The notes below the pieces were generated by a model. It saw only the letters and a list, made by a program, of their open reading frames with translations, did not search any database and was not told the DNA's origin. The position numbers were made by a program, and so were the translations under genes. From Paraburkholderia sp. (GTDB taxonomy: Bacteria > Pseudomonadota > Gammaproteobacteria > Burkholderiales > Burkholderiaceae), in contig JAITTX010000279.1 of the NCBI GenBank assembly GCA_031286755.1, positions 1 to 45,129 on the forward strand: a DNA stretch of 45,129 bases. Direction: 5' to 3'. How positions within the stretch are numbered: the stretch's first letter is position 1; each line of letters starts with the position of its first letter. Shown one piece after another: positions 31,168 to 35,052 of the stretch.

Positions 31168-31812
31168 TCAGGTGTCCGTGCCGGCGACGATCAGCCCGTG
31201 CTGGATCGCGTAGTGGACGAGCCCGGCAGTCGACGGGATATCCATCTTGTCGAGAATATTGGCCTTGTGCGTGCTGACCGTTTTGCTCGACAGCGAGAGG
31301 CTGTGCGCGATTTCGTTGATGCTGCTGCCCTCGACGAGCATCTGGAAGATCTGGAACTCGCGTGGCGTGAGTAACGTATGAGGAAACGAGCTGGCGGGCT
31401 GGTGCAACTGCTTGACCAGCTTCTCGGCCACGAGCGACGAAACGATCGTGCCGCCGCGAGCGACCTTGCGTATCGCGCCGATCAACTGATCGGATTCGGC
31501 GTTCTTGGTGAGGTACCCCGCCGCGCCCGCGCGAATCGCCTGGACCGCGTATTGCGACTCGCGGTACATGCTCAGCACCAGCACCGGCAGCGACGGGTGG
31601 CTTGCCTTGATCTGCTGGATCAGCGCAATGCCGCTCTTGCCCGGCATCGACATGTCGAGCAGCAGCACGTCGACGGCTGTGCCGCGCAATTGCTCGACAA
31701 CGTCGGCGCCGTCGACGGCTTCCGCCGCCACCTGCATGTCGGGCACCGTGGAAAGGATTCTTTTCAGGCCATCGCGAATGATCGCGTGGTCGTCGGCAAT
31801 CATGACGCGCAT
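31168..31812 (-). CDS. NarL/FixJ-type response regulator
   Basis: A 214-residue response regulator. The receiver domain has DD at 7-8, the phosphoacceptor D53 in LLLDMSMPGKSG, and Lys in AAGYLTKNAES; the LuxR-type HTH covers about 148-205 (LTPREFQIFQMLVEG, then INEIAHSLSLSSKTVSTHKA). ATG 31812 is the family-like start and overlaps the end of the kinase gene by 13 bp, so kinase and regulator are coupled and almost certainly cognate. Target genes are not evident; the nearest units are the amidohydrolase operon downstream on the same strand and hipBA. Confidence 0.95.
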   Translation of the reverse strand: MRVMIADDHAIIRDGLKRILSTVPDMQVAAEAVDGADVVEQLRGTAVDVLLLDMSMPGKSGIALIQQIKASHPSLPVLVLSMYRESQYAVQAIRAGAAGYLTKNAESDQLIGAIRKVARGGTIVSSLVAEKLVKQLHQPASSFPHTLLTPREFQIFQMLVEGSSINEIAHSLSLSSKTVSTHKANILDKMDIPSTAGLVHYAIQHGLIVAGTDT

Positions 31813-32900
31813 GGCGGGCTCGCTTCGTTGGCGGCGGTGTTGGCAACTGCGTGGCGCAGCGGGATGCGGACGCTCACGCGCGTCCCATGGCCCGGCCGGC
31901 TGGTGACGCTTAGCTGTCCGCCGAGCATCAGTGCGCGCTCGCGCATGCCGAGCAGGCCGAGCCTGGGCCCGCTCGCGGCGCGCGAAGTGTCCATGCCGCA
32001 GCCGTCGTCGGCAATCGCCAGATGGCAGTGATCGTCGAGCGCGTCGAGCTCGACCACCACGCGCGAGGCATGCCCGTGGCGGCTCGCATTGGTGAGCGAC
32101 TCCTGCACGATGCGGAAGATGGCCGTGCTGCGCTCGGCATCGAGCTCGCCCAGCAGCGCGTCCGGCATGTTCAGCCGCAGTTCGCACGGCAGCGCGTTGC
32201 GCTGCGTGAACGACTCCGTCAGCCATTCGAGCGCGGCGTGCAGGCCCAGCTCGTCCAGCACCGGCGGACGCAGATCGGACGCAATGCGGTGCACGGCATC
32301 CATCGTGGTATCCACCAGGCCTTTGAGCATCCCGATGTGGTCGATCTGCCCGAACGTCAGCGCGCGGGCCTGCGTCTCCAGATAGTTCAGGCCGAGTCGC
32401 AGCCCGCTCAGCAACTGGCCAAGCTCGTCGTGCAACTCGCGCGAAATGCGCGAGCGCTCGCTCTCGCGCACGGACTGAAGCCACGCGGAAAGCTGCCGCA
32501 ACTGGGAGCGCGAATCGCGCAGCTCGGTTTCCGTGCGCTTGAGGTCGGTGATGTCGCGCGAGATGCCCACTGTGCCGACGATGCTCCCATCCGCGTCGCG
32601 CACCGGCATCTTGACGGTGTCGAACCAGAGCAGCTTGCCGTGGGGGCCGGGGCGCCTTTCCTCATAACGGCGGCGCTGGCCGCCTTCGAGCACGGCGCGA
32701 TCGGTGTCCAGATACACCTGCCCCAGTTCCGGCGACCAGACCTTGTCCGGCGTGCTGCCGATGATGTCTTTCTCGGGGCGTCCGCATGCTTCAATAAATG
32801 CTTCATTGACAAGGACATAGCGCGACTCGGTGTCCTTCAGCCATGCCTGGTCCGGAATATTGTTCAGAATGGCCCGATGCAGTTCGCCATAGTTCTCCAC
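31800..32900 (-). CDS. Soluble PAS-domain sensor histidine kinase (HisKA_3 type)
   Basis: A 366-residue kinase with no membrane segment. A PAS/PAC domain fills about 8-125 (NNIPDQAWLKDTESRYVLVN to VGISRDITDLKR). The dimerisation motif SRISRELHDELGQLLSGLRL has the phosphorylated H157, and the ATPase domain shows RIVQESLTNASRHGHA, DDGCGMD and GLLGMRERALMLGG. This is the NarX/UhpB/DegS-like class that pairs with LuxR-type regulators, here encoded next door with an overlap. The PAS input is likely cytoplasmic, such as redox or a metabolite; no Cys or heme ligand is obvious. Confidence 0.95.
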   Translation of the reverse strand: MENYGELHRAILNNIPDQAWLKDTESRYVLVNEAFIEACGRPEKDIIGSTPDKVWSPELGQVYLDTDRAVLEGGQRRRYEERRPGPHGKLLWFDTVKMPVRDADGSIVGTVGISRDITDLKRTETELRDSRSQLRQLSAWLQSVRESERSRISRELHDELGQLLSGLRLGLNYLETQARALTFGQIDHIGMLKGLVDTTMDAVHRIASDLRPPVLDELGLHAALEWLTESFTQRNALPCELRLNMPDALLGELDAERSTAIFRIVQESLTNASRHGHASRVVVELDALDDHCHLAIADDGCGMDTSRAASGPRLGLLGMRERALMLGGQLSVTSRPGHGTRVSVRIPLRHAVANTAANEASPPCAS

Positions 32901-33214: not shown

Positions 33215-33313
33215 TACAGCCTGAAATCTGTAATTCCCGGATACAGCCTTAAGGCTGTATTTTTCATTTACAGCTTTTAGTTTGTATTTTCCATTTACAG
33301 CCTATAGACTGTG
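33215..33313. promoter_or_regulatory. Four 18-bp hip operators with exact 27-bp spacing
   Basis: Sites start at 33215, 33242, 33269 and 33296: TACAGCCTGAAATCTGTA, TACAGCCTTAAGGCTGTA, TACAGCTTTTAGTTTGTA and TACAGCCTATAGACTGTG. The second is a perfect palindrome. Each is followed by a 9-bp AT-rich linker, giving a strict 27-bp period. E. coli hipBA also has four 18-bp operators (TATCC-N8-GGATA), so these are the expected autoregulatory sites of HipB, with a different sequence. The last site ends 39 bp before the hipB start. Confidence 0.88.
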
Positions 33314-33352: not shown

Positions 33353-33721
33353 GTGGACTATTCGCTCAAGACCGTCAGCCAGTTGCGTCCCATGCTGCTG
33401 GGCTTTCGCAAGCAAGCCGGCCTGACCCAGGAAAAGGTCGCGCAGCGTCTCGGCATCTCCCAGCAAAGCTATGCCGCCTTCGAAGCGCACCCCGAAGCCG
33501 CGAGCGTCGACCGGCTCTTTCGCGTGCTGCGGCTGTTCGCGGTCGAAATGCGCCTGTCCTCCGCGGCTTCGGCGCCGGCAACCCGCAGCGCTGCCGCGAA
33601 AAAACGCGCGGCACCCACGGCCGCGCCAGCCGCCGCGAAACGCACGGCCGCCACCGGCGCCGCGGGCAAGCGCGCGGCGCCCAAGCCCAGTGCGAAGCCG
33701 CGCAAGCGGGAGGACTGGTAA
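33353..33721 (+). CDS. hipB: HipB-type antitoxin and autorepressor with basic tail
   Basis: A 122-residue protein from GTG 33353, which has GGGAG 6 bp upstream and gives the family-like start xDYSLKTVSQLRPML; earlier starts at 33311/33317 fall inside the fourth operator. The Xre HTH spans about 9-65 (FRKQAGLTQEKVAQRLGISQ). Residues 71-122 are a histone-H1-like Ala/Lys/Pro tail (AAAKKRAAP, AAAKRTAA, AAGKRAAPKP) ending in REDW. E. coli HipB also ends in Trp, and that residue docks in HipA, so the tail may extend that contact and add DNA affinity. It neutralises and recruits HipA and represses the operon through the four upstream sites. Its TAA overlaps the hipA ATG by one base. Confidence 0.9.
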   Translation: MDYSLKTVSQLRPMLLGFRKQAGLTQEKVAQRLGISQQSYAAFEAHPEAASVDRLFRVLRLFAVEMRLSSAASAPATRSAAAKKRAAPTAAPAAAKRTAATGAAGKRAAPKPSAKPRKREDW

Positions 33722-35052
33722 TGGCGCGCACCCGCCAGACGAACCGGCTCGACCTGTGGATGAACGGTCTGCCCGTCGGGTACTGGGAAATTGTGCGAGG
33801 CGTGGAGCGCCTCGCCTATTTCGAAACCTGGCGCGACGACGAGCAAGGCCGGCCGCTCTCGCTTTCGCTGCCCTTCACGCCGGGCAACCAGCCGTTGCGC
33901 GGCGCGGCCGTGGCCGATTACTTCGACAACCTGCTGCCCGACAGCGAGCGCATCCGGCGGCGCATCGCGGCCCGCTACCGCACGGCCGGCATCACGCCGT
34001 TCGAGCTTCTCGCCGTGCTCGGGCGCGACTGCGTGGGGGCGCTGCAATTGCTGCCGGCCGGCGAGACGCCGGTGGACCTCGAGAACATCGAAGGCAAACC
34101 GCTCTCCGTTGCGGCCATCGCGCGGCTGCTGCGCGACACCACCGCCGCGCCGCCATTCGGCGAGCACGAGAGCGTGGACGACCTGCGCCTCTCGATTGCC
34201 GGTGCGCAGGAAAAGACCGCCCTGCTGCGGCACGGCAACCGCTGGCTGCTGCCCATGGGCAGCACGCCCACCACGCACATCCTGAAGCTGCCGCTGGGTC
34301 TCGTCGGCAACATGCGCGCCGACATGCGCACCTCGGTCGAGAACGAATGGCTGTGCGCGAAGATCGTCGCGGCGTTCGGGCTGCCGATCGCGTCCTGCGA
34401 GATCGCGCATTTCGAAGACACCAAGGCGCTCGTGGTGGAACGCTTCGACCGGCGCATGGCGCGCAATGGCCGCTGGATCGTGCGCCTGCCGCAGGAGGAT
34501 CTGTGCCAGGCCACGGGCACGCCGGGCCTGCACAAGTACGAGGCGGACGGCGGGCCCGGCATCGAAAGCGTGATGACGGTGCTCGGCGGCTCCTCGCGCC
34601 AGGCGGACGACCGGCGCCACTTCTTCCTCGCGCAACTGGTGTTCTGGCTGCTCGCCGCCACGGACGGCCACGCCAAGAATTTCAGCATCGCGCATCTGCC
34701 AGGCAGCCGCTACGTCGCCACGCCGCTCTACGACGTGCTCTCGGCGCATCCCATCATCGGGCGCGGGCGCAACCAGCTTCCGGCGCAGCGCGCGAGCCTC
34801 GCCATGGCCGTGCGCGGCCGCAACGCGCACTACCGCATCGCGCAGATCCTGCCGCGCCACTGGATCGCTCAAGGGCAGCGCGTGGGCTTCGCCGCCGAAC
34901 AGGTCGAGGAAATGATGGCGACGGTGGCCGGCGCCACCGAGCGCGTGATCGGCGAAGTCGCCGCGCAGCTTCCCCGCGACTTTCCGCTCGACGTGGCCGA
35001 GGCGATATTCGCGGGCATGCGCAGGCTGGCAAGAGTCTTGAAGGCCGCTTGA
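33721..35052 (+). CDS. hipA: HipA serine/threonine kinase toxin
   Basis: A 443-residue HipA, about the length of the E. coli protein. The glycine-rich ATP loop reads RLSIAGAQEKTALL with S158 at the place of the regulatory autophosphorylation site Ser150, followed by PTTHILKLPLG. Catalytic D315 is in TDGHAKNFSI and metal-binding D338 in LYDVLSAHP. All key kinase residues are intact, so it should be active. E. coli HipA phosphorylates glutamyl-tRNA synthetase, which raises ppGpp and causes persistence; the same target is probable here given the close similarity around the ATP loop. Translation is coupled to hipB (TAATG). Confidence 0.95.
   Translation: MARTRQTNRLDLWMNGLPVGYWEIVRGVERLAYFETWRDDEQGRPLSLSLPFTPGNQPLRGAAVADYFDNLLPDSERIRRRIAARYRTAGITPFELLAVLGRDCVGALQLLPAGETPVDLENIEGKPLSVAAIARLLRDTTAAPPFGEHESVDDLRLSIAGAQEKTALLRHGNRWLLPMGSTPTTHILKLPLGLVGNMRADMRTSVENEWLCAKIVAAFGLPIASCEIAHFEDTKALVVERFDRRMARNGRWIVRLPQEDLCQATGTPGLHKYEADGGPGIESVMTVLGGSSRQADDRRHFFLAQLVFWLLAATDGHAKNFSIAHLPGSRYVATPLYDVLSAHPIIGRGRNQLPAQRASLAMAVRGRNAHYRIAQILPRHWIAQGQRVGFAAEQVEEMMATVAGATERVIGEVAAQLPRDFPLDVAEAIFAGMRRLARVLKAA

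Follow-up and report, generated by a model that had tools for sequence, protein, structure and literature searches.

In Escherichia coli K-12, hipBA is preceded by four 18-base-pair (bp) palindromes, the operators O1 to O4 (TATCCN8GGATA), whose start-to-start steps are 28, 39 and 28 bp. Passages of the published accounts state that E. coli HipB binds the four operators cooperatively (PMC3376134), that it bends the operator by 70 degrees, a bend linked to cooperative binding, and that the HipB dimer is flanked by one HipA per side (PMC3920265). The N-subdomain of HipA is described as participating in dimerization during DNA binding (passage in PMC6581861), and the G22S substitution in HipA as likely to compromise dimerization and the operator complex (passage in PMC7180214). 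Evenly spaced HipB operators are also known. The relevant passage on Legionella hipBST describes evenly spaced 18-nt HipB operators that are conserved in nearly all species, but there are three of them with 53-bp gaps, the motif is another one and the toxin is split into HipS and HipT (PMC10653801). In general terms the same is known for the hipBA1 and hipBA2 promoters of Caulobacter crescentus, where inverted repeats occur at intervals compatible with the higher-order complex of E. coli; the passage in question gives no figure for the interval and no spacing rule for other bacteria (PMC7029023). For Shewanella oneidensis hipBA, papers citing Wen et al. (2014) report a complex of HipB, HipA and operator DNA. 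Here we analyzed a hipBA locus on a stretch of 45,129 nucleotides from Paraburkholderia sp. (contig JAITTX010000279.1; the whole stretch is referred to as “the window”). The hipBA system itself is an ordinary one, but the pitch of its operators, 27 bp, is unusually invariant. A rule of this kind was not found stated in the literature that we searched on hipBA or HipB operators and their spacing, a search that Schumacher 2015 and Wen 2014 lay outside.

Directly upstream of the window hipBA are four 18-bp dyads, for which no strand is assigned. Operator 1 (33215..33232, TACAGCCTGAAATCTGTA) and operator 2 (33242..33259, TACAGCCTTAAGGCTGTA), the latter a perfect palindrome, match TACAGN8CTGTA without mismatch, and operator 3 (33269..33286, TACAGCTTTTAGTTTGTA) and operator 4 (33296..33313, TACAGCCTATAGACTGTG) match it with one mismatch each. 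The start-to-start steps are 27, 27 and 27 bp. Direct reading of the letters thus agrees with a preliminary description of this DNA, which had placed dyads at the same four starts and 27 bp apart; its consensus (TACAGCYT-NN- for the first arm) is a fair one, with minor departures in site 1 (AA for AG), site 3 (T for C) and site 4 (final G). An alternative register, CTGTA-N9-TACAG, which lies between the sites, was dropped because each end of the array would then carry an unpaired half-site and because the E. coli operators have a different register. The window sites share that register (TANNN-N8-NNNTA) with O1 to O4, as well as their number, length and position upstream of hipB. The two arrays differ in the half-site, TACAG in the window and TATCC in E. 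coli, so the window sites do not match the E. coli-type operator motif, and in their steps; the uneven E. coli spacing had been correctly given in the preliminary description.

TACAGN8CTGTA has two perfect matches in the genome from which the window comes (6.66 megabases searched in 599 contigs, about 86% complete), and both are in the hipBA array. Nine further matches have one mismatch, two of them in the array and seven elsewhere. The latter are all single sites, and no second array was found among the matches listed (the first of 389 on the forward strand with up to two mismatches). A word scan with no preset motif gave the array region a score of 10, compared with a maximum of 4 over 12 shuffles.

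We then compared the loci of HipA relatives, taking the best 80 of the listed matches together with the window (81 rows). A hipB core was recognized in 72 of the 81, and the sequence upstream of hipB in these 72 loci was searched for the window motif with up to three mismatches. Pairs of sites were separated by 27 bp in 155 cases and by 54 bp in 90; the next most frequent separation was 7 bp (21 cases). The motif read backwards gave 13 pairs in total. Chains of sites at 26-28 bp comprised at least three sites in 60 loci, two in five and one in seven, with exactly three in 29. Self-matching of the same sequences, which uses no motif, again had 27 as the commonest distance and as the best lag in 64% of the loci. 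The rows bearing arrays include Paraburkholderia, Caballeronia, Cupriavidus, Gallionella, Janthinobacterium, Hafnia, Brenneria and Colwellia, and the array of Yersinia alsatica has six sites.

The period itself was evaluated with a blind scan, in which neither motif nor spacing was preset: for each locus, the 260 bp upstream of hipB were searched for the best five-letter word forming w-N(6-10)-reverse complement. The window and 79 of its relatives were joined by E. coli K-12, by three paralogues from the window's own genome and by 34 loci drawn from a class-wide sample, making 118 of 119 loci, as L076 was left out for want of a hipB. The class-wide sample covered 369 genomes, of which 37 gave matches, at 39 places; besides the 34 taken in, two in G000 were already included and three (G325, G172, G214) were left out. 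Among the 273 steps found, 205 were of 27 bp, 19 of 28 bp and eight of 26 bp. A step of 26-28 bp occurred in 104 of the 118 loci, compared with 7/118 inside hipB, 8/112 further upstream and 25/708 in shuffles, and in 94 loci this step was accompanied by a score higher than that of any of six shuffles of the same locus. When a second array score was recomputed at 17 assumed periods (each ±1), 27 passed in 87 of the 118 loci, and the other periods in 0 to 7, except for the harmonic at 53-54 (10 loci). Even the neighboring periods were rare: 25 passed in two loci, 29 in seven (its window includes 28) and 30 in none. Chance is ruled out as the origin of the array by the motif counts in the genome, by the blind scan set against its controls and shuffles, and by the period test.

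A phylum-wide sample was scanned as well. The domain was found in 40 of 150 genomes, at 70 places, from which 59 loci were added and 58 scanned (L192 has no helix-turn-helix gene); six of the other 11 places were already included (four in G000, and G272 and G294) and five were left out (three in G488, two in G496). Nine of the 58 loci pass at 27. These are nine of the 11 whose HipB scores at least 70 against our own HipB profile, whereas none of the other 47 passes. Nine plasmid loci were taken afterwards, from plasmid records with matches (1751 in one search, 1476 in another). A 26-28 bp step is present in seven of them, two of which come from closely similar E. coli plasmids. The preliminary description had suggested looking for the same period in hip promoters of related Burkholderiales; it is present there, and it also holds beyond Burkholderiales.

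The letters of the operators, on the other hand, change readily. Half-sites among the hipBA loci include TACAG, TACAA, TACAT, TAGAC, TATCC, TATAC, TATAG, TACTC and TTCAG, and at least 23 changes of the five-letter half-site are required on the HipA tree (81 rows, without L075 and L076; three rows lack a half-site state and some states, e.g., that of L098, are doubtful). Over the same tree, 69 of 78 arrays are entirely of 27-bp steps, eight are mixed and one is other. As the array finder used here assumes 26-28 bp, the evidence for the period itself is that of the blind scan and the period test. The window operator had been described as a new sequence, which is true in comparison with E. coli; the letters, however, vary among many hipBA loci anyway, and so they are the least special part of the array.

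The half-sites tend to follow the recognition helix of the HipB encoded beside them. Helix SQQSYAR occurs with TACAAC (five loci) or TACATC (two), SQQSYAA with TACAGC (four) or TACAGT (three), SQRVFAR with TAGACC (4/4), KQATVSA with TATCCC (2/2) and RQALVSD with TATACG (2/2). Across 111 array-bearing loci, the partial correlation between helix identity and half-site identity, controlling for the rest of HipB, is 0.36, and the best of 51 other seven-residue HipB blocks reaches 0.21; related loci are not independent, so these values serve as a ranking and not as a probability. This tracking is the main evidence supporting HipB as the protein that binds the array. The preliminary description had linked the dyads to HipB from position, and the covariation lends that link independent backing.

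In combination, we consider that the four palindromes are probably the operators at which HipB, with HipA, represses hipBA, and we predict 27 bp to be the HipA-mediated contact distance between neighboring HipB2-HipA2 complexes. Each palindrome would take one HipB dimer with two flanking HipA. At 27 bp, or 2.57 turns of the helix, neighboring complexes would be placed about 206 degrees apart and would touch through HipA, a contact predicted from the published work on E. coli. Such contact would make binding cooperative along the array, keep the promoter closed and hold the bound HipA inactive. As two proteins would meet in this contact, it is the distance that selection would hold constant, while the letters could change freely along with HipB. 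The layout of E. coli (28-39-28) suggests strict pairs of sites; the three-site arrays, which are common, suggest instead a chain of complexes in which pairs would not be the required unit. The long E. coli step equals 28 bp plus about one helical turn, so that both E. coli steps have much the same rotational phase (240 and 257 degrees).

The preliminary description envisaged a cooperative wrapped HipBA-DNA assembly. Cooperativity is likely, but wrapping is not favored by an idealized path with 27-bp spacing and 70-degree bends, a cartoon with a bend value from E. coli, in which the distance between sites 1 and 4 is 22.8 nm for a contour of 27.5 nm. The bends alternate in this path, so the DNA would zigzag and stay extended, and we rejected a wrapped nucleoprotein particle.

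Several observations weigh against a universal 27-bp, HipA-mediated pitch read by HipB. Ten loci have the step in the blind scan and do not beat their own shuffles, and 14 of the 118 loci have no 26-28 bp step in that scan. Among the 14, L054, L056, L075, L086 and L095 show the step under the fixed motif, and L060, L084, L115 and L120 reach scores over 16 when a 26-28 bp step is assumed in the scan; L079, L097, L099, L132 and L133 show no such step by the blind, fixed-motif or period-assuming scan. L098 (contig C73), the closest paralogue in the window's own genome (HipA 51% identical), has only a weak 26-26-26 reading and no convincing 27-bp array, and it is counted among the 104 positives. 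Two of the nine plasmid loci fail the 26-28 bp step. In one plasmid locus, L193 (Chromobacterium violaceum), the blind scan finds no array, despite a HipA that is 62.8% identical and a helix-turn-helix gene detected by profile; no hipB is given for it in PLSDB, whose gene table is incomplete. The match of helix and half-site is not one-to-one either, as TQQSYAY has four half-sites over six loci and TQQTYAR goes with TACAGC in 4/4 although SQQSYAR has TACAAC or TACATC. A promoter scan of the region found no sigma-70-like site, and the center of operator 4 may overlap a putative -10 element. The contact-linked residues of HipA are only partly kept: the window HipA has G22, P86 and D291 and carries E at position 88 (E. 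coli numbering), and among 82 aligned rows D291 is present in 81, P86 in 55, G22 in 42 and D88 in 29. We take P86 and D88 to belong with the residues of the HipA-HipA contact or of high-persister alleles. Finally, contact between HipB dimers or the geometry of RNA polymerase could also fix a pitch.

In the strongest of the alternatives, the sites would again be HipB operators, but HipA would have no part in the pitch, which HipB dimers would set by touching each other directly or through the bend that one HipB imposes on the next site. Uneven conservation of the contact-linked HipA residues would fit it, as would the passage that ties the 70-degree bend of E. coli HipB to its cooperative action on four operators (PMC3920265). 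We nevertheless regard it as rather unlikely. An 18-bp site leaves a linker of 9 bp, and the same source places a HipA on each side of the HipB dimer. Moreover, those of the 118 loci with steps of about 50 bp (L097, L099, L132 and L133) go with more distant HipA proteins; the identity is 32% for L132 and 30% for L133, and the HipA proteins of L097 and L099 fall outside the matches at E-values up to 1e-40.

The longest array that we saw, from the phylum-wide sample (L148, G434:C32:10359-11359), has ten HipB-type operators at nine 27-bp steps upstream of a hipBA pair, the steps coming from a scan that assumes 26-28 bp. Its ten successive units resemble a recent expansion and, as their linkers are partly alike, may have arisen by duplication. 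It is the kind of case expected if arrays were by-products of slippage, with 27-bp units duplicated in tandem and a spacing of no function. As a general explanation we find this very improbable and rejected simple tandem duplication as the common cause, with L148 as a possible case. Over 63 arrays, the copies are identical at 0.85 of the site bases but at only 0.44 of the linker bases, which indicates that most arrays are not fresh duplications. In addition, a single pitch runs through loci with differing half-sites, through the phylum-wide sample and onto plasmids, with periods of 25, 29 and 30 rare.

Binding of the palindromes by some other regulator, such as a LexA-like or global repressor, is highly improbable and was rejected, given that the only perfect matches in the searched 6.66 megabases of the genome sit in the hipBA promoter, that the half-sites track HipB's own recognition helix in the register of the E. 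coli HipB operator, and that their polarity is opposite to that of the LexA box, CTG-N10-CAG.

The genes downstream of the array are those of a typical hipBA pair. The first, hipB (33353..33721, + strand), encodes a predicted antitoxin and likely repressor of 122 amino acids, starting from GTG. Its helix-turn-helix domain matches Pfam HTH_3 (9.6e-10, 38.8 bits, above the cut-off of 23, for the reading from 33311). The most likely start is the GTG at 33353 rather than the codon at 33311, because GGGAG precedes it and ATG or GTG occurs at the same place in 17 of 18 loci compared (counted by eye; in E. coli the position is the second codon, and L063 deviates). With this start, the operator array ends 39 bp before the gene. 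HipB scores 43.3 bits against NCBIfam NF007271, the equivalog model for E. coli HipB, which is below the curated cut-off of 79, and we therefore class it as a HipB-like antitoxin and not as the E. coli equivalog.

The second gene, hipA (33721..35052, + strand), encodes a predicted HipA-family serine/threonine kinase toxin of 443 amino acids, as judged from Pfam HipA_C (3.5e-49, 167.8 bits, above the cut-off of 30.5), Couple_hipA (4.2e-19, 69.3 bits, above 22.5) and similarity to E. coli HipA structures. The small helix-turn-helix gene lies just 5′ of it, with TAA and ATG overlapping by one base at 33721; E. coli K-12 has the same hipB-hipA order and 1-base overlap. The window HipA has an identity of 95% with the P. 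tagetis protein. Its best relatives of solved structure are E. coli HipA proteins (321 bits, top match 9.3e-95); Shewanella HipA is only distantly related (78 bits). S150, D309 and D332 (E. coli numbering), presumably the kinase residues of HipA, are identical in the window and in 81 of the 82 rows of the alignment; the exception, L075, is a 64-residue piece with a gap there.

The HipB tail in the window is about 54 residues long by our own cut and is rich in K, R, A and P; it may resemble histone H1 tails. By the same cut the tails of relatives have a median length of 28 (range 7 to 200), and that of E. coli is given as 16 residues in a passage of PMC3376134, which also shows W as its last residue, as in the window. 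Of the 117 HipB proteins in the set, 104 end in this W, the window's included. The HipB proteins of L122, L124 and L126-L130 end in Y or F instead, and their operators lie outside the TACAG group where an array is readable (that of L122 is doubtful).

Two further features were noted near the array. Operator 2 and the T-run that follows it (33239-33262) score as an intrinsic terminator on the + strand, which might stop transcripts arriving from upstream. Divergently upstream (31168-32900) lies a PAS-domain histidine kinase with a Pfam HisKA_3 domain; the adjoining open reading frame reads by eye like a LuxR-type response regulator.

Other spacings were seen as well. Further hipBA-type loci have palindromes spaced by about 50 bp, several of which are CCC/GGG-rich: L097 (contig C281 of the window's own genome), L099 (contig C174 of the same genome), L132, L133, L136, L141 and L153. 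This distance may be a second fixed pitch. Ahead of other HipA homologues (L168, L175 and L176), palindromes are paired at 40-41 bp, possibly a third.

That the distance outlives the letters around it indicates a physical contact under selection. We propose, as a tentative generalization for which the case falls somewhat short of even, that the 27-bp pitch is a structural invariant of one HipBA branch across Pseudomonadota. In this branch the toxin complex would polymerize along the DNA in fixed 206-degree steps, over as many as ten sites in one relative, and the array would both silence the operon and store inactive toxin, with operator letters and recognition helix co-evolving; distant HipA branches would use about 50 and about 41 bp. 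The 27-bp rule suggests that the HipA-HipA bridge described for E. coli is ancient and widespread; how much toxin is parked on the DNA may be tuned by operator number. In practice, unstudied hipBA loci of this branch can be searched for HipB operators by the 27-bp step alone, and the prediction of half-sites from the HipB recognition helix can begin.
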